Of a stretch of DNA of 64,000 nucleotides, positions 36,092 to 53,354 are shown piece after piece. Position 1 is the first letter of the stretch, and each line of letters starts with the position of its first letter. The stretch covers positions 4,460,001 through 4,524,000 of the forward strand of contig NZ_CP050296.1 in NCBI RefSeq assembly GCF_014189455.1, given 5' to 3'. Source of the stretch: Mesorhizobium huakuii (lineage in GTDB: Bacteria; Pseudomonadota; Alphaproteobacteria; Rhizobiales; Rhizobiaceae). The translations under genes were made by a program, and so were the position numbers. The notes under the pieces are model-generated. The model searched no databases. It was not told where the DNA came from and was given only the letters and a program-made list of their open reading frames with translations.

Positions 36092-36592
36092 CTAAAAGCC
36101 CCGCTGCTGTTTCTGGTAGCGTTTGACAAGCCGCTCCCGCTTCAGGCGGGAGAGCCGCTCGATCCAGAACTGCCCGTTGAGCTGGTCGATCTCGTGCTGG
36201 TGACAGACAGCGAGCAGGCCCTCGGCCTCCTCGACGGCCTCGTCGCCATCCAGGGTCTGGTAGCCGATACGCACGCGTGCATTCCGTTCTATCTCCTCGG
36301 TAACCCCTGGCATGGACACGCTGCCTTCGACATGGCGGATCATTTCGCCCGATGCCCAAAGGATGGTCGGATTGACGTAGCTGCGCAGGCTCGCCGCCGG
36401 CGACACTTCGAGGACGACCAGCCGCTTCAGGATGCCGATATGAGGCGCGGTGATTCCGATGCCTGGAGCGGCGCGCATTGTGTCGGCGAGATCGCCGGCA
36501 AGCCGGTGCAGGTCTTCGTCAAAGACCGATATGGGCTCGGCGACGGAGCGCAGACGAAGGTCGGGAAATCTCACGATTGGCCGTATCGTCAC
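36092..36592 (-). CDS. Peptide deformylase-like protein with altered active site
   Basis: 166 aa with the overall deformylase fold pattern. Motif I is GIGITAPH (residues 44-51) instead of GxGxAAxQ; motif II is EGSVS (89-93) with Ser91 where the metal-binding Cys belongs; motif III is QHEIDQ (132-137), keeping His133 and Glu134 but with Gln137 instead of the second metal His. Thus the catalytic Gln and two of three metal ligands are changed. A normal role in removing formyl from nascent proteins is unlikely; it may be a specialised hydrolase or non-catalytic. It is 74 bases downstream of the AA_synth gene on the same strand. Confidence 0.8.
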   Translation of the reverse strand: MTIRPIVRFPDLRLRSVAEPISVFDEDLHRLAGDLADTMRAAPGIGITAPHIGILKRLVVLEVSPAASLRSYVNPTILWASGEMIRHVEGSVSMPGVTEEIERNARVRIGYQTLDGDEAVEEAEGLLAVCHQHEIDQLNGQFWIERLSRLKRERLVKRYQKQQRGF

Positions 36593-36666
36593 ATGTCACT
36601 CCCGCGTTCGGCAAGCGCAGAGGCTAACGCCAGGCGATCGAGAGGCCAAGCCGGCAGGGCAAAATG

Positions 36667-37257
36667 TCAGGCTTGAACGGCGCCCCGCTCTTGCTCCATC
36701 TCGGCCATGTCCTGGAAGCGGTCGGCGATGCGGGGATGGATGCGGCCGCCATCCGCCGCGCCGATGGCGACGACGATCTCGTCCGCGGCCGGGCCGTCGG
36801 CGATCTGGAAGTTGGCGGTAATGAAATGCGAGCGGCGGCCGTTTTCGCTCTTGTGCATCATCGGCAGCGACAACAGTGCGCCCGGCGCATTGCGGGTGTT
36901 GCAGAATTCGAGATAGGTCGTGCCGCCGACGGCATCGCGGAAAACATTGCCGAAGCGCAGCGTGTGGATCATGGCGGAGGCATGCTCGATCTCGCCGGCG
37001 GTTCCGACGGCCGCGGCCTTGCCGTAGCTCTCGATGCGTTCCGCCGGCATCAGCCCGATCAGGCGGCGCGTCAGTTCCTGCCCGAGCCGGGGGGCGATGG
37101 CGACAATCTCCGGCCGCAAATCCTCGACGAAGCCGCGCCCGGCCCATGGATTGCCCAGGACGGCGGCGACGACGATCGATGTCACCGGCCTGGCGGCCAC
37201 CTTGCTGCCTTCAAGGTGTACTTCCTCGATGAAGGTACAGATCTTCCGCAATTCCAT
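36667..37257 (-). CDS. AA_synth (DUF1185)-family protein
   Basis: 196 aa, single-domain. MELRKICTFIEEVHLEGSK begins the protein, followed by RPVTSIVVAAVLGNPWAGRG, VEDLRPEIVAIAPRLG, a YGKAAAVGTAGEIEHASA loop and the LRFGNVFRDAVGGTTYLEF segment. The family is named for a supposed amino acid synthesis role, but I know of no established reaction. I chose ATG 37257 (GGAGAGG upstream) over one 15 codons before it. It is divergent from the PucR-type regulator, so it is probably a target of it. Confidence 0.8.
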   Translation of the reverse strand: MELRKICTFIEEVHLEGSKVAARPVTSIVVAAVLGNPWAGRGFVEDLRPEIVAIAPRLGQELTRRLIGLMPAERIESYGKAAAVGTAGEIEHASAMIHTLRFGNVFRDAVGGTTYLEFCNTRNAPGALLSLPMMHKSENGRRSHFITANFQIADGPAADEIVVAIGAADGGRIHPRIADRFQDMAEMEQERGAVQA

Positions 37258-37312
37258 GATTTTGGCCTCTCCACGTGGAAGCTCAAATCTAATGCGCGCC
37301 AATCGGCGGGTA

Positions 37313-37338
37313 TTCCTCCGATTCGTAGGAAGAATCGG
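37313..37338. promoter_or_regulatory. Nested dyads between AA_synth and PucR genes
   Basis: CCGATTC (37318-37324) and GAATCGG (37332-37338) form a 7-7-7 perfect inverted repeat. A second pair, TTCCT (37313-37317) and AGGAA (37327-37331), is interleaved with it. AATCGGCG also occurs once more in direct orientation at 37301-37308. The position, between divergent genes, makes it a candidate operator for the PucR-type regulator. Confidence 0.5.
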
Positions 37339-37422
37339 CGTGCGCCCCGCTTGGAAGCGGTGTAGCGTTCGTATATCCGCGACGGCTTAAATTCGCCCTT
37401 CGCGAGTGGCGGAAAATCAGGC

Positions 37423-39219
37423 GTGGACCACGAGTCGCAAATTCTCTCCTTGCGGGACGCCGCCAGCCTCATCAATTCGGGCGGCGATCTCCAGTCCGTG
37501 CTGCGCGACCTCGTGCTGGCGGCCTGCCGACATGCCCAATGGACGTTGGGCTCGATCATGGGCATCGATGCCCCGCATGGCCACGCCTATGTGATCGTGC
37601 GCCACGACCCGACGCTCATTCAGCGCACGCTGCCGGATCGCTGGGAACTCGCCACCAGTCCCTCGATCGTTGCGCTCAACCGCAATGAGCCGGTCTATAT
37701 CAGGGACGCGCGGGTGTCGGAGGAGTTCCCGGGCTATCGCCGCGAGGCCTTCGAGCGCGACTACCGCAGCGTGCTGGTCATGCCGATGAACTGCCTCGAC
37801 GAAGACGGCCGACCGATGGTGCTGACCGTCGTCTCGCGCGAAATCACCGAAGTGACGGCGCAGGATATCGCCTTCATCGGCATGATCGTGCATCTGGGCG
37901 AGATCGCGGTCGAGAAGCAGCATCGGCTGCGCCAGGAGAAGCAGGCCGGCGAACGCCTGCAACGCGCCCTCTCGGCGCACACCTCGCTTCTGCAGCAGGC
38001 CTTGTCGGACGGGTCGGTGGTCTCGCTCGCCGAGAAGGTCAGCGAACTTCTGCCCAATCCGGTGGTGGTGATCGATTTCCATGCCAATCTGGTCGTCGCT
38101 GGCCGTTCCCCGAGCGAGGCGCATTTCGACATCGCCTCGTGGCAGGCGGTGAGCGGAACACTGAGCCGGCAGATATTCAAGATCGCGCGCGGCGCGTCCG
38201 ACGGACGCCACACCGAGACGCTGTTCGTCGATGACGGCAAGCGCCAGCTCAAGCTTTCGGTGCGCATCGAACCGCTTACCATCGATGCCGAAGTGGTTGG
38301 CGCGCTGATGATTTTCCCGACGCCGCAGGCATCGGGCCAGCTCGAGCAGATGCTGCTCGACAGCACCAAATTTGCGCTCAGCGTGCAGATGATGCGCAGT
38401 TTCGTGCGCTTTCGCTTCGAGACCAGGTCGCTCACGGAACTGTTTCTGGAAGTGACGGAGCGCCGCTGGCGCGACGAGGCCGATATCGTCAATCGCGCCC
38501 GCCGGCTGGGGCTCGACCTGACGGTTGCGCACAAGATGATCGTCGTCGATCTCGCCGAGCAGGTGAAGGACGGTGCCATCGGTCTTGCCGATCCGCATCA
38601 TGCGCTGGTGCGTCTTTTGCAGCAGGCCGGTATTGCCGGCACGGCCATAGCGGTGGAAGACGGCCTTGTCTGCCTCGTCCCGGCCGATGCCGGACAGGAC
38701 GGCGCGCGCTTCGCGAAATTGCCGCACAGGATCGCGGCCGAGCTTGGCCGCTATTTCGAACGCGAGCCGGTGGTGGTGCTGTCTGAAGCCTGTGCCGCGC
38801 TGGCCGATTATCCCATCGCCTGGGAGCGATGCCGCCGCATGATCCGGATCGGCCGTTCCTTCGGACGCACCGGTGTTTTTGCCGGCCAGGATTTCGGCCC
38901 GCTGCCGATATTGGTCGCCGCCGCCGACGCTCCCGACGTGCGCGGCTTCGTCGAGGACAGTGTCGGCGCTCTGATCGCGCATGATCGCGACCACGGCACG
39001 CCCTATCTGGACACGCTGTTTGCCTATCTGCGCGAGGGCTGTCGCAGCCAGGCCTGCGCCGACGCCATCGGCCTGCATGTCACCACCTTGCGCTATCGCC
39101 TGTCGCGCATGGAGGAACTGTTCGGGATCCGTCTCGACACGCCCGAACAGCGCTTCGCGGTTGAACTGGCGATCCGTCTCAGCGGCATCATCGACAGCCG
39201 CGTGCCGCCCGTCCGCTAG
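37423..39219 (+). CDS. PucR/CdaR-type regulator with N-terminal GAF-like domain
   Basis: 598 aa, GTG start. Residues ~15-165 look like a GAF sensor domain (LRDLVLAACRHAQWTLGSIM, then YRSVLVMPMNC). The centre is a linker with a further small-molecule-binding-like region, and the C-terminus is the PucR_C helix-turn-helix: YLDTLFAYLREGCRSQACAD followed by HVTTLRYRLSRMEELFGI. PucR-type regulators activate purine, pyrimidine and other nitrogen-compound catabolic genes on sensing the substrate. It is divergent from AA_synth and precedes the flavin reductase operon. Confidence 0.87.
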   Translation: MDHESQILSLRDAASLINSGGDLQSVLRDLVLAACRHAQWTLGSIMGIDAPHGHAYVIVRHDPTLIQRTLPDRWELATSPSIVALNRNEPVYIRDARVSEEFPGYRREAFERDYRSVLVMPMNCLDEDGRPMVLTVVSREITEVTAQDIAFIGMIVHLGEIAVEKQHRLRQEKQAGERLQRALSAHTSLLQQALSDGSVVSLAEKVSELLPNPVVVIDFHANLVVAGRSPSEAHFDIASWQAVSGTLSRQIFKIARGASDGRHTETLFVDDGKRQLKLSVRIEPLTIDAEVVGALMIFPTPQASGQLEQMLLDSTKFALSVQMMRSFVRFRFETRSLTELFLEVTERRWRDEADIVNRARRLGLDLTVAHKMIVVDLAEQVKDGAIGLADPHHALVRLLQQAGIAGTAIAVEDGLVCLVPADAGQDGARFAKLPHRIAAELGRYFEREPVVVLSEACAALADYPIAWERCRRMIRIGRSFGRTGVFAGQDFGPLPILVAAADAPDVRGFVEDSVGALIAHDRDHGTPYLDTLFAYLREGCRSQACADAIGLHVTTLRYRLSRMEELFGIRLDTPEQRFAVELAIRLSGIIDSRVPPVR

Positions 39220-39247
39220 AACCACTCCATCCCGACACCGCTGGCAC

Positions 39248-39270
39248 TGCCTGGCGTCCGCTGCCAGGCA
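39248..39270 (+). terminator. Stem-loop after the PucR gene
   Basis: TGCCTGGC (39248-39255) and GCCAGGCA (39263-39270) form a perfect 8-bp stem with a 7-base loop, 29 bases after the regulator stop. No T tract follows, so a simple intrinsic terminator is uncertain; it separates the regulator from the catabolic genes. Confidence 0.45.
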
Positions 39271-39395
39271 CAGGCTCGCCGCGCCTGCACTTGCTCGGGA
39301 TGGCAGCAGCGCGCCACGACATCTTTCCTACAGACCGGAGGAAGAACGCCGGCCGGCTCCTGCCTAGCTTTCATCCGACACTATGGAGGAAAGCA

Positions 39396-40373
39396 ATGGC
39401 GGACGCGGTGGCACAAAGGACGATCGACCCGATCGCCTTGCGTCGTGCCTTCGGCACCTTCGTCACCGGCGTCACCGTCATCACCGCGCGCGACTGCGAC
39501 GGCAATCCGCGCGGCATGACCGCCAACTCCTTCACTTCGGTCTCGCTTGACCCGCCTCTGCTCCTGGTCTGCGTCGGCAAGGCGGCGGCGAGCTTTCCGG
39601 CATTTAACGAAACGCGGTCCTTCGCGGTGAATTTCCTGCATGAAGGCCAGGCCGATGTTTCTTCGGTGTTCGCGTCGAAAGCGGCGGACAAGTTCCAGTC
39701 GGTCGACCATGACCGCGCCCACACCGGCGCGCCGATCCTCACCGACAGCCTGACCTGGTTCGACTGCACCGTTCACAACCGCATCGAGGCCGGCGACCAC
39801 ATCATCCTGATCGGCCAGGTCCAGGCTTTTGGAACGAGCCCATCGGCGCCGCTCGGATTTTGCCGCGGCCGTTACGCCAGCGTGAAGGATCCGCTGCCCG
39901 CCGGCTGGCTGGCCTCGCAGGACATGATCATCGGCTATCTCGTCGAAGCTGGTGACCGGATCCTCTTGCGCACCGACGGCAAGGGAAGCTGGGTGCTGCC
40001 GACGGCGCGGCGGCGCAAGGCCGACAGCCAACTTGTGCTGGATGGCGGCGAGGCGCTGAGCCTCGTCCCTGAAAACACCTTCCTCTATTCGGTGTTCGAC
40101 GTCGCCGACAGCGATCCCGGCTATCTGATCTACCGCGCCGAACTGAGCCGTGAGAGCGTTGAAGCAGCACTTCCGGACGGCCACGCCTTCTTTGCCGTCG
40201 ACGCGCTGCCCTATGAACGGATCGCCACGCATGAATTGCGCGCCATGCTGCGCCGCTATGCACGCGAGCGCCAGGACAAGCGCTTCGGCATCTACATCGA
40301 CACCGGTGACGGCGGCCGTGTCGCCATGATCGACGGCCAGTCGCAATCGTGGACGCAGGCCGCGTCCGAATGA
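39396..40373 (+). CDS. Flavin reductase-domain protein with C-terminal Nudix-like extension
   Basis: 325 aa. Residues 1-~165 are a flavin reductase of the HpaC/RutF type (RAFGTFVTGVTVITARD, NSFTSVSLDPPLLLVCV, FAVNFL). The remaining ~155 residues include DRILLRTDGKGSWVLPTARR, resembling the start of a Nudix fold, but the canonical Nudix box (GX5EX7REUXEEXGU) is absent. The start follows a perfect GGAGGA. It would supply reduced flavin to the luciferase-like monooxygenase encoded three genes on; the tail might bind that partner or a nucleotide (inference). Confidence 0.83.
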   Translation: MADAVAQRTIDPIALRRAFGTFVTGVTVITARDCDGNPRGMTANSFTSVSLDPPLLLVCVGKAAASFPAFNETRSFAVNFLHEGQADVSSVFASKAADKFQSVDHDRAHTGAPILTDSLTWFDCTVHNRIEAGDHIILIGQVQAFGTSPSAPLGFCRGRYASVKDPLPAGWLASQDMIIGYLVEAGDRILLRTDGKGSWVLPTARRRKADSQLVLDGGEALSLVPENTFLYSVFDVADSDPGYLIYRAELSRESVEAALPDGHAFFAVDALPYERIATHELRAMLRRYARERQDKRFGIYIDTGDGGRVAMIDGQSQSWTQAASE

Positions 40374-40395
40374 TGCTCCACGCAGGACAGACAGC

Positions 40396-41907
40396 ATGAA
40401 AACGACGGTCGCATCGCTCGAAGGCTCGCGCCAGAACCTGTTCATCAACGGGGCTTTCGTGGCGCCCAGGAGTGGGCAGTACATCGACAGTTTCGACCCG
40501 ACCACCGGCAAGCCCTGGTACCAGTTCGCCGAGGCCAGCGCCGAGGATGTCGGCGCAGCTGTCGAGGCCGCGCGGTCCGCCTTCGCGGCGCCGGCCTGGC
40601 GGCGCATGACCCAGACTGACCGGGGCAAGCTCGTTCGCCGGCTGGCGGAGCTGGTGCTGGAGCACGCCGACGAACTGGCGCTGATCGAGACGCGCGACAA
40701 TGGCAAGCTGCTGAAGGAAATGCGGGCGCAGATGCGCGCCATGCCCGACAGCTACACCTATTTCGCCGGCATGGCTGACAAGCTGCTCGGCGACACCATT
40801 CCGGTGAACAAGCTCGACATGCTCAACTTCAACCTGCGCGAGCCGATTGGTGTCGTCGGCATGATCACGCCATGGAACTCGCCGCTGATGCTGCTCACCG
40901 GCACGCTGGCGCCATGCCTGGCGCTCGGCAATACAGTGGTCGTCAAGCCGTCCGAGCATGCCAGTGCCTCGACGCTCGCTCTGGCCGAGCTGATCATGGA
41001 AGCTGGCTTTCCCGCCGGCGTCGTCAACGTCGTGACCGGCACGGGTGTTGTGGCCGGCGACGCGCTGACGCGGCATCCGGGCATCGCCAAATTGGTCTTC
41101 ACCGGCTCGACCGTGACGGGGCGGCGGATTGCCGCCAATGCGGCGCAGAATCTCATCCCCTGCTCGATGGAACTCGGCGGCAAGTCGCCGCATGTCGTCT
41201 TCGGCGATGTCGACATCGACCATGCCGTCAACGGCGTCGTGTCCGGTGTGTTCGCGGCCGCCGGGCAGAGCTGCGTCGCCGGTTCGCGCTGTTTCGTCGA
41301 GGCCAGCGTCCATGACCGTTTCGTCGAGGCGCTGGTCGAGCGCACGAAGCGCGTGCGGGTCGGGCTGCCGATGCTGGAGGAAACCGACATCGGCCCGCTG
41401 GCGCTGTCGGCGCAGCTTGCCAAGGTGGAAGGCTACGTCGCCTCGGGCGTGCGCCAGGGCGCCAGCATCGCGGCCGGCGGCAGGCGGCCGCAGGCGGCCG
41501 AGCTTGCCGGCGGCTGGTATTTCGAACCGACCGTCATGACCGATGTCGACAACGGCATGGACTTCATGCAGGAGGAACTGTTCGGCCCCGTCGTCGGCGT
41601 CATGCCGTTCTCGTCGGAAGAGGAGATGATCCGGCTCGCCAACGACACCCGCTATGGCCTCGCCTCCGGCATCTGGACGCGGGACATCAACCGCGCGCTG
41701 CGCTTCGCCAGGAACGTCGAGGCCGGCACCGTCTGGATCAACACCTATCGCGCCTCCTCCTTCATGTCCGCCAATGGCGGCTTCAAGGAGAGCGGCTACG
41801 GCCGACGCGGCGGCTTCGACGCCATGGAGGAGTTCTCGCGCCTGAAGAATGTCGTCATCGACTATTCGGGCGCCATGCAGGACCCGTTCGTCATCCGCCT
41901 TCGCTGA
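40396..41907 (+). CDS. NAD(P)-dependent aldehyde dehydrogenase
   Basis: 503 aa. All ALDH marks are intact: VVGMITPWNSPLMLL, FTGSTVTGRRI, catalytic Glu in SMELGGKSP and catalytic Cys in AAGQSCVAGSRC. It oxidises an aldehyde to an acid, probably the one released by the monooxygenase pathway. It begins 22 bases after the flavin reductase and is followed by the luciferase-like gene after 29 bases. The substrate cannot be read; similarity is to the broad betaine/semialdehyde group. Confidence 0.9.
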   Translation: MKTTVASLEGSRQNLFINGAFVAPRSGQYIDSFDPTTGKPWYQFAEASAEDVGAAVEAARSAFAAPAWRRMTQTDRGKLVRRLAELVLEHADELALIETRDNGKLLKEMRAQMRAMPDSYTYFAGMADKLLGDTIPVNKLDMLNFNLREPIGVVGMITPWNSPLMLLTGTLAPCLALGNTVVVKPSEHASASTLALAELIMEAGFPAGVVNVVTGTGVVAGDALTRHPGIAKLVFTGSTVTGRRIAANAAQNLIPCSMELGGKSPHVVFGDVDIDHAVNGVVSGVFAAAGQSCVAGSRCFVEASVHDRFVEALVERTKRVRVGLPMLEETDIGPLALSAQLAKVEGYVASGVRQGASIAAGGRRPQAAELAGGWYFEPTVMTDVDNGMDFMQEELFGPVVGVMPFSSEEEMIRLANDTRYGLASGIWTRDINRALRFARNVEAGTVWINTYRASSFMSANGGFKESGYGRRGGFDAMEEFSRLKNVVIDYSGAMQDPFVIRLR

Positions 41908-41936
41908 CCAAGACCCGATACACTGGGGAGACCGAC

Positions 41937-43013
41937 ATGAAATTCGCCGTTTCGCTGACCATGGAGCGCTTCTCGCCCGACATCCCGATGTCGAAGGTGA
42001 AGAGCAATCTGCTTGAGCTGGCGCGCATGGCCGACGAAGGCGGCTTCGAGACGCTATGGACGGCGGAGCATCACACGATCGAATGCACGATCTCGCCCAA
42101 TCCGCTGATGACGCTGACATGGCTTGCCCAGCATACCGAGCAGATCCGGCTCGGTACCTCGACGCTGGTCGCGCCCTATTGGAACCCGATCCGGTTGGCG
42201 GGGGAGGCGGCGCTTTGCGATCACCTGACCGGCGGTCGGCTGGAGTTCGGCATCGCGCGCGGTTCGTACCAATACGAGTTCGACCGCATGGCCGGCGGCA
42301 TGCCGCAGCAGGAAGGCGTTGCCTATCTGAAGGAACTGGTGCCGGCGGTGAAGAAACTGTGGGCGCAGGATTATGCCCATGACGGCCACTACTGGAAGTT
42401 CCCGCTCGCCGCTGGCGTCCCGAAGCCGCTGCAGAAGCCGCATCCGCCGATCTGGGTGGCCGCGCGAGACCCGGGCACCTTCGATTGGGCCGTCGGCATC
42501 GGCGCCTCGATCCTGTCGACGCCCCTGTCGGCGCCGGCGGCCGAAATCGCGGTGCTCGGCGAGAAATTCCGCAAGGCCGTCGCCGATCATCCGGAGGTGC
42601 CGCGCCCGCGCCTGATGATGCAGCGGCGCACCTGCGTCTACGAACGGGCGCAGGACTGGGAGATCGCGGTCGGGCATGCCATCGACTACGGCCGCGCCTT
42701 CGAGAACCTGTTCCAGAACATCGGCACCGTGCAAAACGGCTTTCCCGAAGCCGTCCCCTATGAGAGCGTCAAGGGCAAGGACAACTACAATCCCGAGAAC
42801 ATCCGCCGCAACCTGATGTTCGGCACGCCGGACGAGGTGATCGAGAAGCTGCTCGACTATGAAGCGGCGGGCGTCGACCAGTACTGCCTCGGCCTGACGT
42901 TCAACCTGCCGTTCGAATTGCAGAAGAAGACGATCAAGCTGTGGGTCGACGAGGTAATGCCGGTCTTTGCCGCGCGCGAGCGCGACAAAGCGCGCCAGGC
43001 GGCGAGGGCGTGA
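41937..43013 (+). CDS. Luciferase-like (LLM) flavin-dependent monooxygenase
   Basis: 358 aa, class C two-component flavin monooxygenase (bacterial luciferase fold). MKFAVSLTMERFSPD at the start, FETLWTAEHHTIECTISPNP with the paired His, RLGTSTLVAPYWNPIRLAGE and GRLEFGIARGSYQYEFDRM are the family blocks. Such enzymes need reduced FMN from a separate reductase, here probably the protein at 39396-40373. RutA belongs to the same superfamily but differs clearly in sequence, so the uracil pathway is not implied. The stop is 2 bases before the hydrolase start. Confidence 0.88.
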   Translation: MKFAVSLTMERFSPDIPMSKVKSNLLELARMADEGGFETLWTAEHHTIECTISPNPLMTLTWLAQHTEQIRLGTSTLVAPYWNPIRLAGEAALCDHLTGGRLEFGIARGSYQYEFDRMAGGMPQQEGVAYLKELVPAVKKLWAQDYAHDGHYWKFPLAAGVPKPLQKPHPPIWVAARDPGTFDWAVGIGASILSTPLSAPAAEIAVLGEKFRKAVADHPEVPRPRLMMQRRTCVYERAQDWEIAVGHAIDYGRAFENLFQNIGTVQNGFPEAVPYESVKGKDNYNPENIRRNLMFGTPDEVIEKLLDYEAAGVDQYCLGLTFNLPFELQKKTIKLWVDEVMPVFAARERDKARQAARA

Positions 43014-43015
43014 CC

Positions 43016-43840
43016 ATGGCGCGCACCGGCCAGCTCGATGTCGAAGGCGTGCTGCTCAACTGGCGCCTGGACGGCGAGGGCGGCGTGCCGCTGGTCTGCA
43101 TCCATGGCGTCGGCTCCTACCTCGAAGCCTGGAATGGCGTGGCCGGGCAGTTGAAGGATCACTTCGCGGTTCTCACCTTCGACCTGCGCGGCCACGGTCG
43201 CTCCAGCCGCGTGAAGGGTCGCTACGAGATCGACGATTTCGTCGGCGAGACTCTGGCGCTGGCCGACCATATGGGGTTTGCCACTTTCCATCTGGCCGGG
43301 TTTTCGCTGGGTGGCCTGATCGCACAGCGCCTGGCGCTGACGCATGCCGAGCGCCTGCAAAAAATGGTGCTGTTGTCTACGGTCGCCGGCCGCACGCCCG
43401 AAGAGCGGCACGCGGTGCGTGGCCGGCTGGCGGCGCTGATGGCGAGCGACGCCTCGGCGCATCACGCCGCCTCGCTGTCGCGTTGGCTGACGGAGGAATT
43501 TCAGGACAGCAATCCGGAGATTATCGCGGAGCTGCGCCGGCGGGATGCCGAGAACGACCGCGACTGCTACGTGGCAGCCTATCGCGTTCTGGCCGAAACC
43601 GATTTCGGCGGCATTCTCGACCGCATCACTTGCCCGACGCTGATCGTGACCGGCGAGGATGACCAGGGTTCCAGCCCGCGCATGGCGCGGCTGATGCACG
43701 AACAGCTGCAAGGGTCGCAACTCGCGATCCTGCCCGGACTTCGCCATTCGATCCTGATCGAGGCGCCGGCTCGGGTTGCCGCGGCGATGGGCGATTTCCT
43801 GTTGGATCAAGGTGCCAAGAGGGCGGCGGCCCATGGATAG
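43016..43840 (+). CDS. Alpha/beta-hydrolase
   Basis: 274 aa. The oxyanion segment is CIHGVGSYLEAW, followed by FDLRGHGRS; the nucleophile elbow is AGFSLGGLIAQ (Ser), a late acid position lies in VTGEDDQGS, and the catalytic His is in GLRHSILIEAP. Thus a complete triad is present. It may hydrolyse an ester, enol-lactone or carbamate made by the monooxygenase, analogous in position to RutD. A GTG two codons earlier is possible, but ATG has GAGGG at a better distance. Confidence 0.87.
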   Translation: MARTGQLDVEGVLLNWRLDGEGGVPLVCIHGVGSYLEAWNGVAGQLKDHFAVLTFDLRGHGRSSRVKGRYEIDDFVGETLALADHMGFATFHLAGFSLGGLIAQRLALTHAERLQKMVLLSTVAGRTPEERHAVRGRLAALMASDASAHHAASLSRWLTEEFQDSNPEIIAELRRRDAENDRDCYVAAYRVLAETDFGGILDRITCPTLIVTGEDDQGSSPRMARLMHEQLQGSQLAILPGLRHSILIEAPARVAAAMGDFLLDQGAKRAAAHG

Positions 43841-44105
43841 CAACCTTCGCGAGGCAGGAGAGCAACGCCGGCCCCAAGCTTCGCGTGACGCTTCGCCGGC
43901 ATCAGGCCGGGGCCTTCCCTGTGATCGGGGGAATGGCGACGGCGAACATCCTCCGCGACATCGGAAGACCGGAACGGCCGCGACGTCGCTAAATCCGCGA
44001 GCCTTTGGGAGAAGACGCCGACCTGGTCGGCACGAGATTGCGACGTCACGACCGGCTGAACGGAAGTGACCGCAAGTGACTGAACAACAACAGGGGAATA
44101 CGCAC
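43841..44105. other. Gap between hydrolase and transporter genes
   Basis: 265 bases with no supported gene. A GGCCCC/GGGGCC pair around 43875-43915 could fold, and GCTTCGC is repeated, but nothing forms a clear terminator or operator. It may hold a separate promoter for the transporter operon; the ribosome site AGGGGA is at its end. Confidence 0.4.
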
Positions 44106-44939
44106 ATGACAATCTGGAACAGACGACAGCTGACGATGGCCGCGATGGCGCTTGCGCTTGGCGCATATCCTGCTCACGCCGGCGCTGTGCTCGACCGCGT
44201 GATGGCGGCCGGCACGCTCAAGGTGGCGACCGACGCCAACTGGGCGCCGCAATCCTTCGTGAATGCCAGCAACGAGCTGGACGGCTTCGATGTCGACGTC
44301 GCCAAGGCGATCGGCAAGCACCTCGGCGTCAAGGTCGAGTTCATCACGCCCGGCTGGGACATCATCACGGCCGGCAATTGGGCAGGGCGCTGGGACATGC
44401 ATGCCGGCTCGATGACGCCGACCAAGAAGCGCGCCGAGATCTTCGATTTTCCGGCGGTCTATTATTACACACCGGCGGCCGTTGCCGTGCACAAGGACAG
44501 CAAGGCGAAGACTTTGGCCGATCTCGACGGCAAGGTGGTCGGCGCCACCAGCACCTCCACCTTCGAGGCCTATGCCAAGAAGGATCTGACGCTCGACGCC
44601 GCCGGCGCGCCGCCATTCGAGTACAAGCTCAACCCGAAGGAGGTCCACTCCTACGAGAATTCGACGACCGCCTTCGACGACCTTCGCCTTGGCGATGGCG
44701 TGCGCCTCGACGCGGTGGTCTCCTCGCTGCCGTCGATCCTGGATGCGCAGAAGGCCGGCTACCCGATCAAGCAGCTGGGCGATCCGGTATTCTACGAACC
44801 GCTGGCGATCGCCATCGAGCGCGGCGATCCCGAACTCTCCGCCAAGATCGCCGACGCCGTGAAGGCGATGAAGGCGGACGGCACGCTGAGCAAGCTTTCC
44901 GAAAAATGGTACGGGCAGGATTATTCGAAGACAAACTAG
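44106..44939 (+). CDS. ABC substrate-binding protein, family 3 (polar amino acid type)
   Basis: 277 aa. A signal peptide (TIWNRRQLTMAAMALALGA, cleaved after AHA) precedes GTLKVATDANWAPQSFV and DGFDVDVAKAIGKHLGVK, typical of PAAT binding proteins. The region MHAGSMTPTKKRAEIFDF forms part of the ligand pocket; an Arg/Lys binding the alpha-carboxylate is probably Lys in TPTKKR, so the ligand is likely an amino acid-like or carboxylate compound. First gene of a three-gene transporter, presumably feeding the monooxygenase pathway just upstream. Confidence 0.88.
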   Translation: MTIWNRRQLTMAAMALALGAYPAHAGAVLDRVMAAGTLKVATDANWAPQSFVNASNELDGFDVDVAKAIGKHLGVKVEFITPGWDIITAGNWAGRWDMHAGSMTPTKKRAEIFDFPAVYYYTPAAVAVHKDSKAKTLADLDGKVVGATSTSTFEAYAKKDLTLDAAGAPPFEYKLNPKEVHSYENSTTAFDDLRLGDGVRLDAVVSSLPSILDAQKAGYPIKQLGDPVFYEPLAIAIERGDPELSAKIADAVKAMKADGTLSKLSEKWYGQDYSKTN

Positions 44940-44946
44940 CCCTTAA

Positions 44947-44972
44947 GGCGGCCTGCCTTGGGGCAGGCCGCC
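44947..44972 (+). promoter_or_regulatory. Perfect 11-bp stem-loop between binding protein and permease genes
   Basis: GGCGGCCTGCC (44947-44957), loop TTGG, then GGCAGGCCGCC (44962-44972). It starts 7 bases after the binding-protein stop. There is no T tract, so mRNA protection or partial read-through is more likely than full termination. Confidence 0.65.
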
Positions 44973-44991
44973 GAACAGCCGGTGCTCAAAG

Positions 44992-45966
44992 ATGCTCTAT
45001 CCGGATACCGTCGAAGCCGAAATCCTCGTCCACAAACCCTGGTTTGTGGCGACGATGTTCGGCGTCGTTCTGCTGCTCTTCATGGCCTTCAACATGGCGG
45101 GCACCAGCTTCGCTGAACTGATGCGTCCGGTGATCGGCGAACCGTCGGTGAGTGGCCTCTACGGCCGCTTTGCCATTGCTTTCGCTATAGCGGTGATCTT
45201 CACCTTGAATGTCGTGCTGATCGGTTTCGCGCCGATCAAGTTCCAGATCGGCATCGTCTGGCTCGAACTGCTGCTGCTGTTCATCGCCTTCTTCGAGACG
45301 TTCCATCTCAGCCTGCCCTTCATCAGGGAGAAGCTGCCGTTCCTGATCAGCCAGGGCGTTGTCACCACGCTCTACGTTTCGGCGATTTCCATCGTCATCG
45401 CCTCGGTCATCGCCGTTGCCGGCGCGGTCGCCAAGCTTTCCAGCAATGGCTTCGCTTACGCCATCGCCAGCTTCTACACCTCCTTCTTCCGCGGCCTTCC
45501 GCTGCTCATGCAGGTCTATCTGATCTATCTCGGCTTGCCGCAACTCGGCTTCGTCATCAACGCGGTGCCTGCCGGCATCCTGGCGCTTTCGCTCTGCTAT
45601 GGCGCCTACATGACCGAGATTTTCCGCTCCGGCATACAGAGTATCGATCGCGGCCAGTGGGAGGCGTCGCGCTCCATGGGTTTCGGCTTCGCATTGACCA
45701 TGCGCCGCATCATCCTGCCGCAGGCGCTGCCGGTCATCATTCCGCCGACCGGCAACCAGTTCATCTCGATGCTGAAGGATTCCTCGCTGGTCTCGGTCAT
45801 CGGCGTCTGGGAACTGATGTTCCTGGCGCGCACCCTCGGCCAGAAGACCTTCCAGCACATGGAGATGCTGATTTCGGCCGCCATGATCTACTGGATGCTG
45901 TCCATCTGCCTCGAACTGATCCAGGCACGGATCGAGCGGCACTACCGCAGGAGCAAGGTCAGATGA
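44992..45966 (+). CDS. Amino acid-type ABC permease
   Basis: 324 aa. It has two or three N-terminal membrane segments not found in short HisM-type permeases, then the five-helix permease core with EAA loop [21 protein letters not shown]. Only one permease gene is present, so the channel is probably a homodimer. The stop overlaps the ATPase start by 4 bases. The longer N-terminus resembles GltK/YckA-type extended permeases but I cannot assign the substrate. Confidence 0.88.
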
Positions 45967-46706
45967 ACGCTCATGTCATCATCGAAGCGCGCAACGTATC
46001 GAAGTGGTACGGCGCCTTTCACGTCTTGAAGGACATCAACCTGACCGTCCACAAGGGCGAGCGGATCGTCATTTGCGGGCCGTCGGGTTCCGGCAAATCG
46101 ACGCTCATCCGCTGCTTCAATCGCCTGGAGGCGCATCAGGAGGGCGATATCACCGTCAATGGCGTTGCCTTGCATGGCAAGATGGGCAACGTCGCCGACG
46201 TGCGCTCCAACGTCGGCATGGTGTTCCAGCATTTCAACCTGTTTCCGCACATGACGGTGCTGATGAACTGCATGGCCGGCCCGATGTGGGTGAAGGGGGT
46301 GTCGGAAAAGGAGGCGCGCAAGACCGCGCTGAAGTTCCTCGAGCGGGTTCGCATTCCCGAGCAGGCGAACAAGTTCCCCATCCAGCTGTCCGGCGGCCAG
46401 CAGCAGCGTGTGGCGATTGCCCGCAGCCTGTGCATGGAGCCGGCTGTCATGCTGTTCGACGAACCGACCTCCGCCCTCGACCCGGAAATGGTCTCGGAGG
46501 TGCTGGACACCATGACGGAACTGGCCCGCGACGGCATGACCATGGTGTGCGTGACGCATGAGATGGGCTTTGCCCGTGCCGTGGCCGACCGCGTCATCTT
46601 CATGGACGCCGGGCAGATCGTCGAGGCCGGTACGCCAGACGAATTCTTCGGCCACCCACGCCACGATCGAACCAGATTGTTCCTCAGCCAGATCCTGAAA
46701 CACTGA
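45963..46706 (+). CDS. Amino acid-type ABC ATP-binding protein
   Basis: 247 aa. Walker [11 protein letters not shown]-loop [14 protein letters not shown], signature LSGGQQQR, Walker [16 protein letters not shown] and THEMGFA are intact. It is closely related to the AapP-like protein at 21816-22580, but sequence differs through the helical domain ([13 protein letters not shown]). It overlaps the permease by 4 bases and is the last gene of this transporter. Confidence 0.92.
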
Positions 46707-46859: not shown

Positions 46860-47029
46860 GCAGAATTATAGAAAATCATTATTTGTGCATCGCACACAGC
46901 GTGCTTTGCTCCCTCCACCGGCTGAAAGAGAACAAAAAGAACGTCAGGCGGCAGCCTTCGGCGATGCGTCCGAAGCGGGTTGTTTTGGCGCCGACAGCGC
47001 CTGACCTCAGAAAAAGACAGGGGAACGTG
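46860..47029 (+). promoter_or_regulatory. Leader/promoter region of the NitT/TauT-type operon
   Basis: An AT-rich block at 46863-46885 is the likeliest promoter location. TGTGC-ATC-GCACA (46884-46896) is a short dyad just after it, suitable as an operator. Two small potential stems, CTTCGG/CCGAAG and GGCGC/GCGCC, lie further on. No gene is supported here. Confidence 0.4.
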
Positions 47030-48019
47030 ATGACGACAATAATCTCGAAGTTTCGCCGCGCCGCGCTTGCGGCCGGCATTGCGCTGAGCGCCCTTTCGGT
47101 GAGCCTCCACGCCGAAGCCGGCAGCTTGAAGCTGGGCATGACGACCTGGGTCGGATACGGCCCGCTCTTCCTTGCGCGTGACATGGGCTACTTCAAGGAA
47201 GGCGGCCTCGATGTCTCGCTCGAAATCATCGAGGAAGCATCGATGTACATGGCGGCCGTCGCCGCCGGCGAGCTCGACGGCAGTGCCTCGACCATCGACG
47301 AAATCATGAAATACCGTTCGAAGGATGTCTGCTTCAAATCGGTCTATGCCCTGGACGACAGCCATGGCGGCGACGGCGTTCTGGCGCCGAGCGGCGTCAA
47401 GAGCGTCGCCGATCTCAAGGGCATGGAAGTCGGGCTGAACGAAGGCTCGGTGTCGCAGTTCTGGTTCAACATCCTGCTCAAGCAGGCCGGTCTCAGCCAG
47501 ACCGATGTGAAGATCACCAACATGACGGCGGATGATGCCGCCGCCGCCTTCATGGCCGACCGCATTCCCGTTGCCGTCACCTGGGAACCGCATCTGACGC
47601 TGGCCAAGAAGGAAAACAAAGGACAGGTGCTGATCGACTCCTCCAAGACGCCAGGCCTGATCGTCGATGTGGTGGCGCTGAACTGCGACTACATCACCAA
47701 GAACCCGGCGGATGTCGAGGCGCTGGTCAAGGGGCTCTACAAGGCCAACGAGTTCATCAAGGAAAATCCTGCGAAGGCTTATGAGGTGATGGCCAAGGGC
47801 GTCGGCGGCTGGCTGAAGGATCCGAAGGACTTCGCCTCCTCCGCCGCGGGCGTGAACTTCTACGGCAAGGACCGCAATGCCCAATTCTTCGCCGGCGGCG
47901 AGACTGGCGAAGCCGGCAAGCTGATCAAGCTCGGCGGCGATATCTGGGGCGGCTTCGGCAAGCTCAAGATGGACATCAAATACGACGACCTCGTCGATAC
48001 GTCGTTCCTTGCGAAGTGA
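47030..48019 (+). CDS. NitT/TauT-family ABC substrate-binding protein
   Basis: 329 aa. A signal peptide (ISKFRRAALAAGIALSALS, ending near AEA) is followed by LKLGMTTWVGYGPLFLARDM and FKEGGLDVSLEIIEE, the mark of NMT1/OpuAC-like binding proteins for sulfonates, nitrate or thiamine precursors. ATG 47030 follows AGGGGAACGTG; longer upstream frames lack a signal. The WVGYGPLFLA motif is shared with proteins for taurine and aromatic or amine compounds, so the ligand is open. Its end lies in a tandem repeat that triplicates the stop codon. Confidence 0.88.
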   Translation: MTTIISKFRRAALAAGIALSALSVSLHAEAGSLKLGMTTWVGYGPLFLARDMGYFKEGGLDVSLEIIEEASMYMAAVAAGELDGSASTIDEIMKYRSKDVCFKSVYALDDSHGGDGVLAPSGVKSVADLKGMEVGLNEGSVSQFWFNILLKQAGLSQTDVKITNMTADDAAAAFMADRIPVAVTWEPHLTLAKKENKGQVLIDSSKTPGLIVDVVALNCDYITKNPADVEALVKGLYKANEFIKENPAKAYEVMAKGVGGWLKDPKDFASSAAGVNFYGKDRNAQFFAGGETGEAGKLIKLGGDIWGGFGKLKMDIKYDDLVDTSFLAK

Positions 48020-48060
48020 CTTGGCCTTGCGAAGTAACCTATCCTTGTAAAGTGAGCTCG
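48007..48060 (+). repeat. Three 18-bp tandem units at the 3' end of the binding-protein gene
   Basis: Imperfect copies begin at 48007, 48025 and 48043, each starting CCTTG(C/T)(G/A)AAGT. Since 18 is a multiple of 3, each unit carries an in-frame stop: TGA, TAA and TGA. The first encodes the natural end LAK-stop; the others lie in the untranslated gap. Confidence 0.75.
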
Positions 48061-48061
48061 C

Positions 48062-48095
48062 TGGACCGCGGGCCGGGCCTCGCGCCCGCGGTCCA
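48062..48095 (+). promoter_or_regulatory. Perfect 12-bp stem-loop before the permease gene
   Basis: TGGACCGCGGGC (48062-48073) pairs with GCCCGCGGTCCA (48084-48095) across a 10-base loop. Like the hairpins at 24859 and 44947, it stands between a binding-protein gene and a permease gene and lacks a T tract. Confidence 0.65.
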
Positions 48096-48116
48096 TCCGG
48101 CCCAAAGGGTTTCCCT

Positions 48117-48983
48117 GTGACACTGGCACCGAATGCAACGTCTCCCATCAGCCATATCGTGACCACGAGCGTGGAAAAAAATCAGCCCGGTCGATCCGCC
48201 TGGAAAGCTGTCACCACGCCTTTTCAGGCCGTGTCGCGCCCTCTCTCCATCACGCTCAGCGTCCTGGTCTGGGGCGCGGTCATCGGCGGCTGGTTTGCCT
48301 TGACCTATTCCGGAGCGGTCAAGGAAATGTTCCTGCCGCGCCCGGAATCCGTACTGTTCACCACCATCAACATGGCGCTTGACGGCTCCTTGTGGGAGCA
48401 CGTGCTGGCCAGCGTCCAGGTGGTGCTGATCGGCTTCGTCATTTCGAGCATCGTGGCGGTGCCGCTTGGGCTAACGATGGGCACCTACCGCATCGTCCAG
48501 GCCGCGCTCGACCCGCTCGTCAATTTCATCCGCTATCTGCCGGTGACGTCCTTCGTGCCGCTTTTCATCCTGTGGATCGGCATCGGCATCGAGCAGCGCG
48601 TGGCCGTCATCATCTTCGGCATCTTCTTCCAGCAACTGGTGATGATCGCCGACAGCGCCCGCAGCGTTCAGCGCGACCTCGTCAATGCGGCTTACACGCT
48701 CGGGACGAAACGCAGCGACACGGTCTTCCACATCGTCTTTCCGGCCACGCTTCCCAATGTGCTCGACGTGCTGCGCGTCACGATGGGCTGGGCCTGGACC
48801 TATCTCGTCGTCGCCGAACTCGTCGCCGCGCGCAGCGGGCTTGGCTACATATCGCTGAAGGCCATGCGCGGCTTCCAGGTCGACGTCATCTTCATGGCCA
48901 TCGCCCTGATCGGCATCCTTGGCCTTTGCACCGACCAATTGTTCCGGGGCATCCGCCGCCTCGTCGCTCCCTGGGCCAATTGA
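48117..48983 (+). CDS. NitT/TauT-family ABC permease (TauC/SsuC-like)
   Basis: 288 aa, GTG start. A hydrophilic N-terminus precedes six membrane segments. The LWEHVLASVQVVLIGFVISS and ALDPLVNFIRYLPVTSFVPL blocks, the NAAYTLGTKRSDTVFHIVFP EAA loop and the ELVAARSGLGY segment are as in TauC/SsuC. It lies 97 bases after the binding protein, 13 bases before the ATPase, and completes a three-gene importer. Confidence 0.9.
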   Translation: MTLAPNATSPISHIVTTSVEKNQPGRSAWKAVTTPFQAVSRPLSITLSVLVWGAVIGGWFALTYSGAVKEMFLPRPESVLFTTINMALDGSLWEHVLASVQVVLIGFVISSIVAVPLGLTMGTYRIVQAALDPLVNFIRYLPVTSFVPLFILWIGIGIEQRVAVIIFGIFFQQLVMIADSARSVQRDLVNAAYTLGTKRSDTVFHIVFPATLPNVLDVLRVTMGWAWTYLVVAELVAARSGLGYISLKAMRGFQVDVIFMAIALIGILGLCTDQLFRGIRRLVAPWAN

Positions 48984-48996
48984 GGAGTTCGTAGAC

Positions 48997-49800
48997 ATGG
49001 ATGCCCTGACACTCGCGACGAAACCGAAGAGCGCCGACATCGGCATCGACAATGTGGTCCTGCGCTACGGCAAGGGCGACAACGCCGTGCTGGCGCTGGA
49101 CGGCATCTCATTCCATGTCGTGCCCAATGAGTTCTGCGTGATCGTCGGCCCATCGGGCTGCGGCAAGTCGAGCCTGCTCTATCTCATTGCCGGTCTCGAG
49201 GAGCGCACCGGCGGCATGATCTCCGTCGGCGGCAAGCCGGTCACCGAGCCAGGCCCGGATCGCGGCATGGTGTTTCAGGCCTATACCCTGTTTCCCTGGC
49301 TGACCGTGGCGCAGAACGTCGAATACGGCCCGAAGCGCAAGGGCATGCCGGCGGCCGAGCGCAGGGCCACCGTCGAGCATTTTCTCCAGGAAGTCGGCCT
49401 GGCGAAATTCGCCAACCATTATCCCTCGCAGCTGTCCGGCGGCATGAAGCAGCGCGTGGCGATTGCGCGTGCGCTCGCCAACGATCCGCAGGTGCTGCTG
49501 ATGGACGAACCCTTCGGAGCGCTCGACAGCCAGCCCCGCCACTCCATGCAGAAGCTTTTGCTGAGGATCTGGGACCATTCCAAGAAAACCGTCCTGTTCG
49601 TCACCCACGACATTGACGAGGCGATCCTGCTGGCGGACCGGGTGCTCGTCATGTCCGGCCGGCCCGGCCAGATCAAGAAAGAAATCCGCGTCGGCCTCCC
49701 GCGTCCGCGCAGCATGGACCTGGTCATGGAGCCGAACTTCATCGCCATGAAGCGGGAAATCCTCGAGCTCTTGAAGAACGACGAAGACGACGAGCACTAA
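48997..49800 (+). CDS. NitT/TauT-family ABC ATP-binding protein (TauB/SsuB-like)
   Basis: 267 aa. Walker A GPSGCGKSS, Q-loop MVFQAYTLFPWLTV, signature LSGGMKQR, Walker B VLLMDEPFGALD, and switch THDIDEA. These are the TauB/SsuB variants, differing from the amino acid-type ATPases elsewhere in the window. The stop codon's last base starts a long inverted repeat that extends into the start of the next gene. Confidence 0.91.
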   Translation: MDALTLATKPKSADIGIDNVVLRYGKGDNAVLALDGISFHVVPNEFCVIVGPSGCGKSSLLYLIAGLEERTGGMISVGGKPVTEPGPDRGMVFQAYTLFPWLTVAQNVEYGPKRKGMPAAERRATVEHFLQEVGLAKFANHYPSQLSGGMKQRVAIARALANDPQVLLMDEPFGALDSQPRHSMQKLLLRIWDHSKKTVLFVTHDIDEAILLADRVLVMSGRPGQIKKEIRVGLPRPRSMDLVMEPNFIAMKREILELLKNDEDDEH

Positions 49801-49847
49801 TGCATGTCGCCCAAAAGTGACCTCGGTTTTGGGAGGACGACATGCAT
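49800..49847. repeat. REP-like palindrome covering the SD and first ATG of the GMC gene
   Basis: Outer arms ATGCATGTCG (49800-49809) and CGACATGCAT (49838-49847) and inner arms CCCAAAA (49810-49816) and TTTTGGG (49827-49833) give 17 base pairs with a 10-base loop and a 4-base bulge AGGA. I recall closely similar palindromes (GCATGTCG...CCAAAA...TTTTGG...CGACATGC) dispersed in Mesorhizobium genomes. Here the bulge is the ribosome site and the ATG at 49842 is in the stem. Confidence 0.75.
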
Positions 49848-51467
49848 GAAACGAAGACCGGCATGAGCATCGCGACCGCGGAATTCGACTATATCGTCAT
49901 CGGCGCGGGCTCGGCCGGTTGTGTCCTGGCCAACAGGCTGAGCGCAAACCCCGCCAATCGCGTCTGCCTCATCGAGGCCGGCGGCAGCGACGATCGAACA
50001 AGGGTGCGCGTGCCGGCCGGCATTCTCTCGCTCTACGGCAATCCGACTTTCGACTACGGCTACAAGGGCGTGCCGCAGCCGCTGCTCAACAACCGCCGCA
50101 TACCGGTCAATCGAGGCAAGCTTCTTGGCGGGTCGAGTTCGATCAACTCGATGGTCTACATCCGTGGCGCCGTGCAGGACTACGACGAGTGGGCAGCGCT
50201 TGGCTGCGCGGGGTGGTCCTATGCCGACGTGCTGCCGGTCTTCAAGACGCTGGAGCGCAATCTCCTGTCGCAGAGCCCGGCCTATCACGGCTTCGACGGC
50301 GAATTGCTGGTCGACAATCCGCGTGATCCCAACGCCGTATCCAGCCTCTGGGTAGAGGCGGGTCGCAGCGTCGGCCTGCCCGAAAACCGCGACTTCAACG
50401 GCGATGGCCAACTCGGCCTCGGCATCTACAACGTCACCCAGGACAAGGGCGAGCGCTTCTCGGCCTACACCGCCTTCGTCCGGCCGGTTCTCGGCCGCTC
50501 GAACCTCCAGGTCCTGTCAGGCGTCGAGGTGCTTAATCTGGCGATCGAAAACGGACGCGTGACCGGCGTCAATGTGATCAGGGACGGAGCAGCCCAAAGG
50601 CTGTCATGCCGCGCCGAAGTCGTCCTGAGTGCGGGTGCGATCGGATCGCCGCGCATCCTGCTTGCTTCCGGCATTGGCCCGGCCGAAGAGCTGAAGGCGG
50701 CGGGGGTGGAACCGGTCATGAACCTGCCCGGCGTCGGCAAGAATTTGCGCGACCATGTCGACGGCATGATCACCGTGCGGTCGAACAGCACCAGGACGCT
50801 CGGCCTGTCGCTCGCCAATCTGCCGGCGATGCTGGCCGCACCCTTTCAGTATTTCGTCCGGCGCAAGGGCATGCTGACGACCAATTACGTCGAGGCCGGC
50901 GGTTTCGCCAGGACGAAATATGCCGGCGATATTCCCGATGTCCAATTCCACTTTGTCCCGGGCTACCGCAGCCATCGCGGCCGGCTCGTCGAATATGGCC
51001 ATGGCTATGCCGTGCACACTTGCGTGCTGCGGCCGGGAAGCGTCGGCGCAATCACGCTCGAGCGCGACGGCACCCGCCGCAACGTGCTGATCGATCACCG
51101 CTTCTTCAGTGACGGGCAGGATGCTTTGACCCTGGTCGAAGGCATCAAGCTGGCGCGCTCGATCCTGGCTGCACCGGTCTTTGCCGATATTCGCGGACCG
51201 GAAATCCTGCCGGGACCCGATGTCGTCAGCGACGACGAGATCCTCGCCTATCTGCGTGCCGAAGCGCTCACCGTCTATCACCCGGTCGGCACGGCCAAGA
51301 TGGGCAACGACGCCATGGCAGTGGTCGATCCCGCCGGCCTCAAGGTGCGCGGCTTCGACAATCTGCGCGTGGGGGACGCCTCGATCATGCCGACACTGAT
51401 CGGCGGCAACACCAATGCGCCGTCCATGATGATCGGCGAAAAAGCAGCCAGGGCGATGCTGTCGTAG
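49842..51467 (+). CDS. GMC-family FAD oxidoreductase (choline/alcohol dehydrogenase-like)
   Basis: 541 aa. FAD motif DYIVIGAGSAGCVLANRLS, second flavin segment LLGGSSSINSMVYIRGAV, GMC signature GSPRILLASGIGPAE and the active-site His in YHPVGTAKMGND with Asn in GGNTNAPSMMIGEKAA are intact. It oxidises an alcohol to an aldehyde, which could pass to the aldehyde dehydrogenase encoded at 54055. The start is either ATG 49842, with GGAGGA but inside a hairpin, or ATG 49863 with weaker signals. Substrates of the group include choline, polyethylene glycols and aliphatic alcohols. Confidence 0.9.
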   Translation: MHETKTGMSIATAEFDYIVIGAGSAGCVLANRLSANPANRVCLIEAGGSDDRTRVRVPAGILSLYGNPTFDYGYKGVPQPLLNNRRIPVNRGKLLGGSSSINSMVYIRGAVQDYDEWAALGCAGWSYADVLPVFKTLERNLLSQSPAYHGFDGELLVDNPRDPNAVSSLWVEAGRSVGLPENRDFNGDGQLGLGIYNVTQDKGERFSAYTAFVRPVLGRSNLQVLSGVEVLNLAIENGRVTGVNVIRDGAAQRLSCRAEVVLSAGAIGSPRILLASGIGPAEELKAAGVEPVMNLPGVGKNLRDHVDGMITVRSNSTRTLGLSLANLPAMLAAPFQYFVRRKGMLTTNYVEAGGFARTKYAGDIPDVQFHFVPGYRSHRGRLVEYGHGYAVHTCVLRPGSVGAITLERDGTRRNVLIDHRFFSDGQDALTLVEGIKLARSILAAPVFADIRGPEILPGPDVVSDDEILAYLRAEALTVYHPVGTAKMGNDAMAVVDPAGLKVRGFDNLRVGDASIMPTLIGGNTNAPSMMIGEKAARAMLS

Positions 51468-51613
51468 TCTCGCACTGGCCGGTCTCCTGGCATTTAGGGA
51501 CAAGCTAACCACTGCCACGTGAAATCGTAATTTTCGCTAATCAGTCCCTCCAGTACACCAGCGATCTGACCTCCTCGCATCCGCAGAAACTCTTGGGGGG
51601 AAAGGACGCAGAA

Positions 51614-53349: not shown

Positions 53350-53354
53350 TCCTG

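Follow-up and report, generated by a model that had tools for sequence, protein, structure and literature searches.

What a rhizobium would break down with a PucR-regulated luciferase-like monooxygenase (LLM), and whether the genes around this enzyme form a pathway that already has a name, are the questions raised by positions 36092-46706 of the window studied here, a 64,000-nucleotide stretch of Mesorhizobium huakuii DNA (contig NZ_CP050296.1; C1:4460001-4524000 of an 8.45 Mb Mesorhizobium genome). A first-pass annotation, made from the sequence alone, had proposed one catabolic module in which a nitrogen ring is opened by flavin-dependent oxygenation, and had taken it for an undescribed system that no named pathway matches. 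Pfam and NCBIfam profile searches of the cluster genes, with scores in bits compared to model cut-offs, confirmed all genes that had been named and their places (Table 1), and the ring opening was supported as probable. The claim of novelty was not borne out, given that the set matches the trigonelline pathway family by family. We conclude that this is a real, well conserved module that is closely related to a known pathway, rather than a system of an undescribed kind. Its gene families indicate that it probably constitutes a Tgn-type uptake-and-degradation pathway for a pyridinium betaine, that is, trigonelline or a close analog.

Conservation and linkage of the module

We compared the best 80 of 222 LLM-encoding stretches in species genomes (LLM identity 77-99%), on which all locus counts given here are based. 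A core of six genes, encoding AA_synth, the PucR regulator, the two-domain flavin reductase, the aldehyde dehydrogenase, the LLM monooxygenase, and the alpha/beta hydrolase, was complete in 76 of these loci across alpha-, beta-, and gammaproteobacteria, with genera including Mesorhizobium, Rhizobium, Shinella, Ensifer, Bosea, Azospirillum, Pseudomonas, Paraburkholderia, Caballeronia, and Pandoraea. Given this conservation, the divergently oriented AA_synth gene is truly linked to the monooxygenase operon, far from what chance would produce, and the proposal of one catabolic module stands. Of the four incomplete loci, L010 had AA_synth truncated by a contig end and L025 was a short contig without AA_synth, PucR, and reductase genes, while PucR was not found in L059 and the aldehyde dehydrogenase was absent from the 11.5 kb examined in L081, where the reductase gene adjoins the LLM gene. 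Since the order of the AA_synth and PucR genes is altered in Pseudomonas and Azospirillum loci, this linkage outlasts rearrangement.

The window-type LLM was nevertheless patchily distributed. When 293 genomes of the Pseudomonas order were sampled, an LLM at E ≤ 1e-60 was present in 8; the genome at the center of the sample was the only one with the window type (81% identity), and the other LLMs were 38-45% identical. Of 1164 records matched in the plasmid collection, 60 had at least 60% LLM identity. Genes in the surroundings also varied. A CMD-family gene was present in 50/80 loci, in 39 directly 3' of the hydrolase gene and in 11 nearly 4 kb further (45-50% identical), a NIPSNAP gene in 32/80 (one of them remote from the cluster), an Lrp-type regulator gene in 39/80, and a class III aminotransferase gene in the flanks of 21/80. 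We found no description of the window-clade module in the literature searched, which consisted of open-licence papers, so that absence is not proven.

Match to the trigonelline pathway

In Acinetobacter baylyi ADP1, tgnA-F likewise bring together an LLM oxygenase, a flavin reductase, aldehyde dehydrogenase, an alpha/beta hydrolase, and the AA_synth protein TgnF in one cluster, a likeness at the level of protein families. Work by Perchat et al. in 2018 reportedly identified TgnA as the reductase, TgnC as the dehydrogenase that acts on the product of ring opening, and TgnD as the hydrolase giving succinate semialdehyde, while TgnE, the succinate semialdehyde dehydrogenase (SSADH), is said to be clustered with the other tgn genes. 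At our locus, an LLM-family oxygenase is accompanied by a separate flavin reductase and by an AA_synth/DUF1185 protein as in TgnF, and the aldehyde dehydrogenase and alpha/beta hydrolase agree at family level with TgnC and TgnD. A. baylyi has two aldehyde dehydrogenases (TgnC and TgnE), whereas 36092-46706 encodes one, so that a second dehydrogenase is absent from the cluster; we do not treat this gap as excluding, since an SSADH can be encoded elsewhere in a genome.

Three papers bear on individual steps. Ring opening, the first step, is carried out by the TgnA/TgnB oxygenase system (PMC8269262), the trigonelline monooxygenase Q6F9F6 (TgnB) is placed among luciferase-like enzymes (PMC11354265), and A. 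baylyi TgnF, homologous to a DUF1185/AA_synth (PF06684) protein, stimulates TgnE-dependent succinate semialdehyde oxidation (PMC7913881). Among 120 listed homologs of our LLM, six were named flavin-dependent trigonelline monooxygenase, oxygenase component, and one of 120 listed hydrolase homologs (P0166, 73%) was named (E)-2-((N-methylformamido)methylene)succinate hydrolase, which is the TgnD reaction. Additionally, an SSADH-like dehydrogenase gene lay in the flanks of 25/80 loci; for a representative, the top two NCBIfam models were SSADH models, both under their cut-offs. An exit via succinate semialdehyde would fit these flanking genes.

Importer exchange and substrate class

An SBP_3-type importer at least 60% identical to that of the window was encoded in 40/80 loci, while 39/80 instead had a ProXWV-type importer 3' of the hydrolase gene; no locus had both types, and one had neither (L081, at a contig end). 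In a representative of the second type (L035), the ProX-type protein reached 391.6 bits in the model for glycine betaine/L-proline solute-binding proteins (cut-off 215), the ATPase passed the betaine/proline/choline subfamily model (343.3 vs. 326.6), and the permease was nearest ProW, under the cut-off. Because the two importer types replace each other around the same enzymes, these comparisons suggest that the substrate is a betaine-like zwitterion. That it is trigonelline itself we consider less likely than not.

Proposed mechanism

We infer the regulator ligand, the substrate, and all chemical steps. The ABC importer would take up a zwitterionic, betaine-like substrate, which the PucR regulator would sense, perhaps via its GAF-like domain, to turn the operon on. 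With reduced flavin supplied by the flavin reductase, the LLM oxygenase could use O2 to open the pyridinium ring, giving an N-formyl-enamine aldehyde or lactol that the aldehyde dehydrogenase would convert to the acid. The alpha/beta hydrolase would then split the N-formyl-enamine acid into (methyl)amine, formate, CO2, and succinate semialdehyde, with AA_synth aiding a late step, as TgnF does in A. baylyi, and a putative succinate semialdehyde dehydrogenase encoded elsewhere in the genome would finish the pathway.

A second copy and its relative in Sinorhizobium meliloti

The same genome harbors a second module at C1:1952-1961 kb (L098), with its LLM gene at C1:1954343. It is made of the same families, with AA_synth 57%, aldehyde dehydrogenase 47%, LLM 43%, reductase 40%, and hydrolase 32% identical to their counterparts in the window, but differs in having a GntR/FCD regulator, an SBP_bac_8 importer, and hydrolase and reductase in one open frame. 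This frame (L098:6443-8347, C1:1952442-1954346) encodes 634 residues and is probably a fusion of the alpha/beta hydrolase and the flavin reductase, which are two genes in Sinorhizobium meliloti. Among the 24 matches to the window hydrolase in the genome, itself included, the second-copy hydrolase was narrowly the best paralog (116.9 vs. 113.2 bits).

We also searched pSymA and pSymB of S. meliloti 1021 (the chromosome lay outside this search). The best LLM match, 41% identical, was on pSymA, with an AA_synth gene 1.8 kb upstream, in a cluster at about 430-440 kb of NC_003037. In the annotated strain ABS7 (L189), genes for LLM, AA_synth, hydrolase, reductase, aldehyde dehydrogenase, NIPSNAP, and an ABC importer lie between nodL/noeB and nifT/nifD. 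The pSymA cluster thus shares AA_synth, alpha/beta hydrolase, two-domain flavin reductase, LLM, and aldehyde dehydrogenase with the window, and NIPSNAP with the window-type relatives that have this gene. It differs in gene order, in importer family (the ATPase was best matched by PhnT2/PotA, under the cut-offs), and in its LLM, which falls in a separate clade. The flavin reductases of the window and of pSymA are 36% identical (110/308). According to a 1990 study by Boivin, the trigonelline (trc) genes of S. meliloti are reportedly closely linked to nif-nod genes on pSym, and because of this linkage, the pSymA cluster probably represents the trc genes.

LLM clades and differences in the oxygenase

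In an LLM tree, the window clade comprised 30 rows (support 100/100) and a clade of S. meliloti, Rhodobacter, and Marinomonas sequences, to which the window LLM does not belong, comprised 8 rows (100/98). The outgroup branches were saturated, with a long-branch warning, and the second copy was not resolved at the base of the ingroup; our reading of the clades therefore relies on the split and on identities. LLMs were at least 63% identical within the window clade and 36-50% between this clade and others, while the second-copy LLM was 63% identical to that of S. meliloti and 51-54% to those of a clade from the order of Pseudomonas. Among 146 Mesorhizobium genomes, 35 had the window-type LLM (seven of them only 71-78% identical), and 83 had an LLM of the 40-49% type, a count that includes one fragment, pools both non-window clades, and scores the LLM gene alone. 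Both types were present in 24 of the 146 genomes, a co-occurrence that was not significant (Fisher p 0.12).

Across 22 representatives, 14 positions were fixed differently between clades. The window clade has G252, L258, and G319 where the others have Y, W, and W, and W at position 62 where the others have Y or D. In an AlphaFold2 model of the window LLM (predicted local distance difference test score 91, predicted template modeling score 0.90), residues 252 and 258 lie on helix 238-260, and strand 315-319 ends with residue 319. The counterpart of luciferase alpha-Trp250, an active-site pocket residue, is residue 251 in the alignment. Loss of aromatic residues at 252, 258, and 319 would be in keeping with a substrate whose ring substituent is different or larger.

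The third LLM clade (L117, L119, L120, and L121; order of Pseudomonas) was 42-45% identical to the window LLM and encoded near a short flavin reductase (161-186 residues); the 11-17 kb examined around these loci gave no match to AA_synth.

Alternative explanations

Several observations weigh against a trigonelline pathway in the window. The tie to A. baylyi TgnA-F is at protein-family level, and either TgnC or TgnE lacks a counterpart in the cluster. The trigonelline labels among homologs are few and probably automatic; most LLM and hydrolase homologs have generic names (LLM class oxidoreductase, alkanesulfonate monooxygenase SsuD-like, pimeloyl-ACP methyl ester carboxylesterase). For HcdD, a related AA_synth protein, TgnF-like stimulation could not be seen (PMC7913881). 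The LLM of S. meliloti is in a different clade (40-45% identical to ten window-clade representatives), and since the second copy in the same genome is nearer to it, the window module may have another substrate; the clade-fixed LLM positions also point in this direction.

The same kind of module could therefore serve another compound, such as another N-methylpyridinium carboxylate (for example homarine), N-methylnicotinamide, or a non-betaine pyridine or picoline-type compound, with the second copy as the trigonelline system, and we regard this as having close to an even chance. It is mostly a case within the pyridinium betaine pathway that we favor, although part of it falls outside betaines. 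Arthrobacter degrades pyridine (PyrA-E) by the same chemical logic, which we keep within this alternative. The alternative is favored by the coexistence of two LLM types in the host genome as well as in the 24 Mesorhizobium genomes, by the resemblance of the second copy to the other LLM type found in the trc region of S. meliloti, and by the three clade-fixed positions that carry Y, W, and W elsewhere, which lie on the helix containing the counterpart of luciferase alpha-Trp250 and at the strand end. On the other hand, the trigonelline names were attached to the window clade and to none of 120 entries in a Marinomonas-centered list (names being mostly generic in both), LLM co-occurrence fell short of significance, and position 62 is an aromatic W in the window clade. 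TgnA/TgnB have been argued to be unlikely to act on homarine (PMC8269262), and we recognized no paper on homarine genes among the open-licence literature searched. Somewhat short of an even chance, in our estimate, is the more specific possibility that the window module is a distinct pathway, not described before, that acts on a plant pyridinium betaine different from trigonelline and operates beside a trigonelline module in the same rhizobia, with an exchangeable importer and an oxygenase pocket reshaped by the loss of three aromatic positions. In that case AA_synth, which is constant in both modules, might be a RutC-like protein processing enamines or imines among the ring-opening products.

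Two further explanations depart from the trigonelline pathway altogether. The first-pass annotation had included the deformylase-like gene, with its product as an enzyme, in a pathway not yet described that would act on an N-heterocycle or a cyclic amide. This gene is 74 bases from AA_synth on the same strand, an N-formyl intermediate is chemically plausible for such a role, and the NCBIfam equivalog NF009484 passes on 36092-36592 (268.6 vs. cut-off 190). Nonetheless, among 74 loci with at least 1.5 kb beyond AA_synth, only two had the gene (L011 and L040), so that of the linkage proposed between the divergent halves, which we checked in neighborhoods across genomes, the AA_synth part stood and the deformylase part did not. 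The metal-ligand motifs of peptide deformylases are EGCxS and HExxH; the protein has GIGITAPH, EGSVS, and HEIDQ, and neither metal-ligand motif is present, from which we take two of the three metal ligands to be lost, whereas another deformylase-family gene in this genome (L099, detected by BLAST, 40% identical) encodes EGCLS and HEIDHL at the second and third motifs. On the grounds of rarity and degenerate catalytic motifs, we judged this gene to be a neighbor outside the module, and with the rest of the set matching a named pathway by family, its participation as an enzyme appears very unlikely. We consider Rut-type pyrimidine degradation highly improbable. It divides labor in the same way, among an LLM oxygenase, a flavin reductase, and an alpha/beta hydrolase, and the first-pass annotation rightly saw a parallel in chemical logic; the likeness to RutA, RutD, and RutF ends there. 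Scores were far under the cut-offs of the RutF (87.5 vs. 254.75 bits) and RutD (78.7 vs. 238.5 bits) models, RutA structures matched the LLM family profile at about 23.5 bits, RutB- or RutC-type Pfam matches were absent among the cluster genes scanned, as had been anticipated, and half of the relatives have betaine-type importers. A Tgn-type pathway for a pyridinium betaine is the explanation that we retain.

Gene content and layout

Gene starts (Table 1) were corrected against annotated homologs, and the AA_synth start was set at the first ATG. Given intergenic gaps of 22, 29, and 2 bases, the reductase, dehydrogenase, LLM, and hydrolase genes likely form an operon; permease and ATPase genes overlap by 4 bases. 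The extra domain that had been pointed out in the reductase is present, but is not peculiar to it, since residues 8-312 match the solved structure 3rh7 and the domain is common to both; the S. meliloti reductase matches 3rh7 over its full length (675 bits). Just upstream of the reductase start, at 39323-39393, are an imperfect 27-base inverted repeat and an 18-base direct repeat, including GGAGGAA. These short repeats are possibly a regulator site, or due to chance.

Table 1. Features at positions 36092-46706 of the window, with profile scores and assignments.
Feature	Position	Strand	Evidence and remarks
Deformylase-like protein (Pep_deformylase)	36092..36592	-	PF01327, 133.9 bits; neighbor, judged outside the module
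AA_synth (formerly DUF1185), TgnF-like	36667..37257	-	PF06684, 212.3 bits; in 78/80 related loci
PucR-type regulator	37423..39219	+	GGDEF_2, HTH_30; GAF_2 24.1 bits, below cut-off 28.6; in 78/80 loci
Flavin reductase with C-terminal domain, TgnA-like	39396..40373	+	Flavin_Reduct PF01613, 144 bits
Aldehyde dehydrogenase (Aldedh), TgnC-like by position in the set	40396..41907	+	PF00171, 567 bits; TgnC and TgnE not distinguished; no NCBIfam cut-off reached among the matches listed (25 of 45 families)
LLM-class flavin-dependent monooxygenase, oxygenase component, TgnB-like	41937..43013	+	Bac_luciferase PF00296, 184.6 bits
Alpha/beta hydrolase, TgnD-like	43016..43840	+	Pfam
SBP_bac_3 (SBP_3) amino-acid-type solute-binding protein of importer	44076..44939	+	PF00497, 123 bits
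ABC importer permease	44992..45966	+	PF00528, 96.6 bits
ABC importer ATPase	45963..46706	+	PF00005, 128.7 bits; best NCBIfam GlnQ, 308 bits, under cut-off 379

Neighboring genes and other AA_synth genes

Directly after the module, at 46883-49800, is an NMT1-type ABC importer, the binding protein of which was matched in L011 alone among the 80 loci. Further downstream are genes for a GMC oxidoreductase (49842-51467) and a Pyr_redox_3/flavin monooxygenase-like protein (51593-52888), near a DUF1028 gene (53004-54029).

In total, the host genome contains six AA_synth matches. A tandem pair of AA_synth genes (35% and 40% identical to that of the window) occurs with an amidohydrolase-family gene 4 kb past the window (L101:5906-7122, C1:4527905-4529121). 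Another lies after a gene for an FAD_binding_3 monooxygenase and before one for a class II aldolase (L100:6146-9225, C1:4226-4229 kb), and yet another is near two LLM-like genes (BLAST, 30-32% identity over 90-92 residues; L099:7488-14084, C1:3201-3208 kb). The association of AA_synth with flavin monooxygenases may be a more general one.

Implications

Legumes contain trigonelline and related betaines, and according to the 1990 study by Boivin, trigonelline genes of rhizobia are reportedly induced in symbiosis. A second Tgn-type module, shared by rhizobia, Azospirillum, Burkholderia relatives, and Pseudomonas, would show which plant alkaloids are eaten by root bacteria. It would also improve the naming of many genes now called "LLM class oxidoreductase" and "amino acid synthesis", and it is a clean system in which to work out the function of AA_synth proteins.

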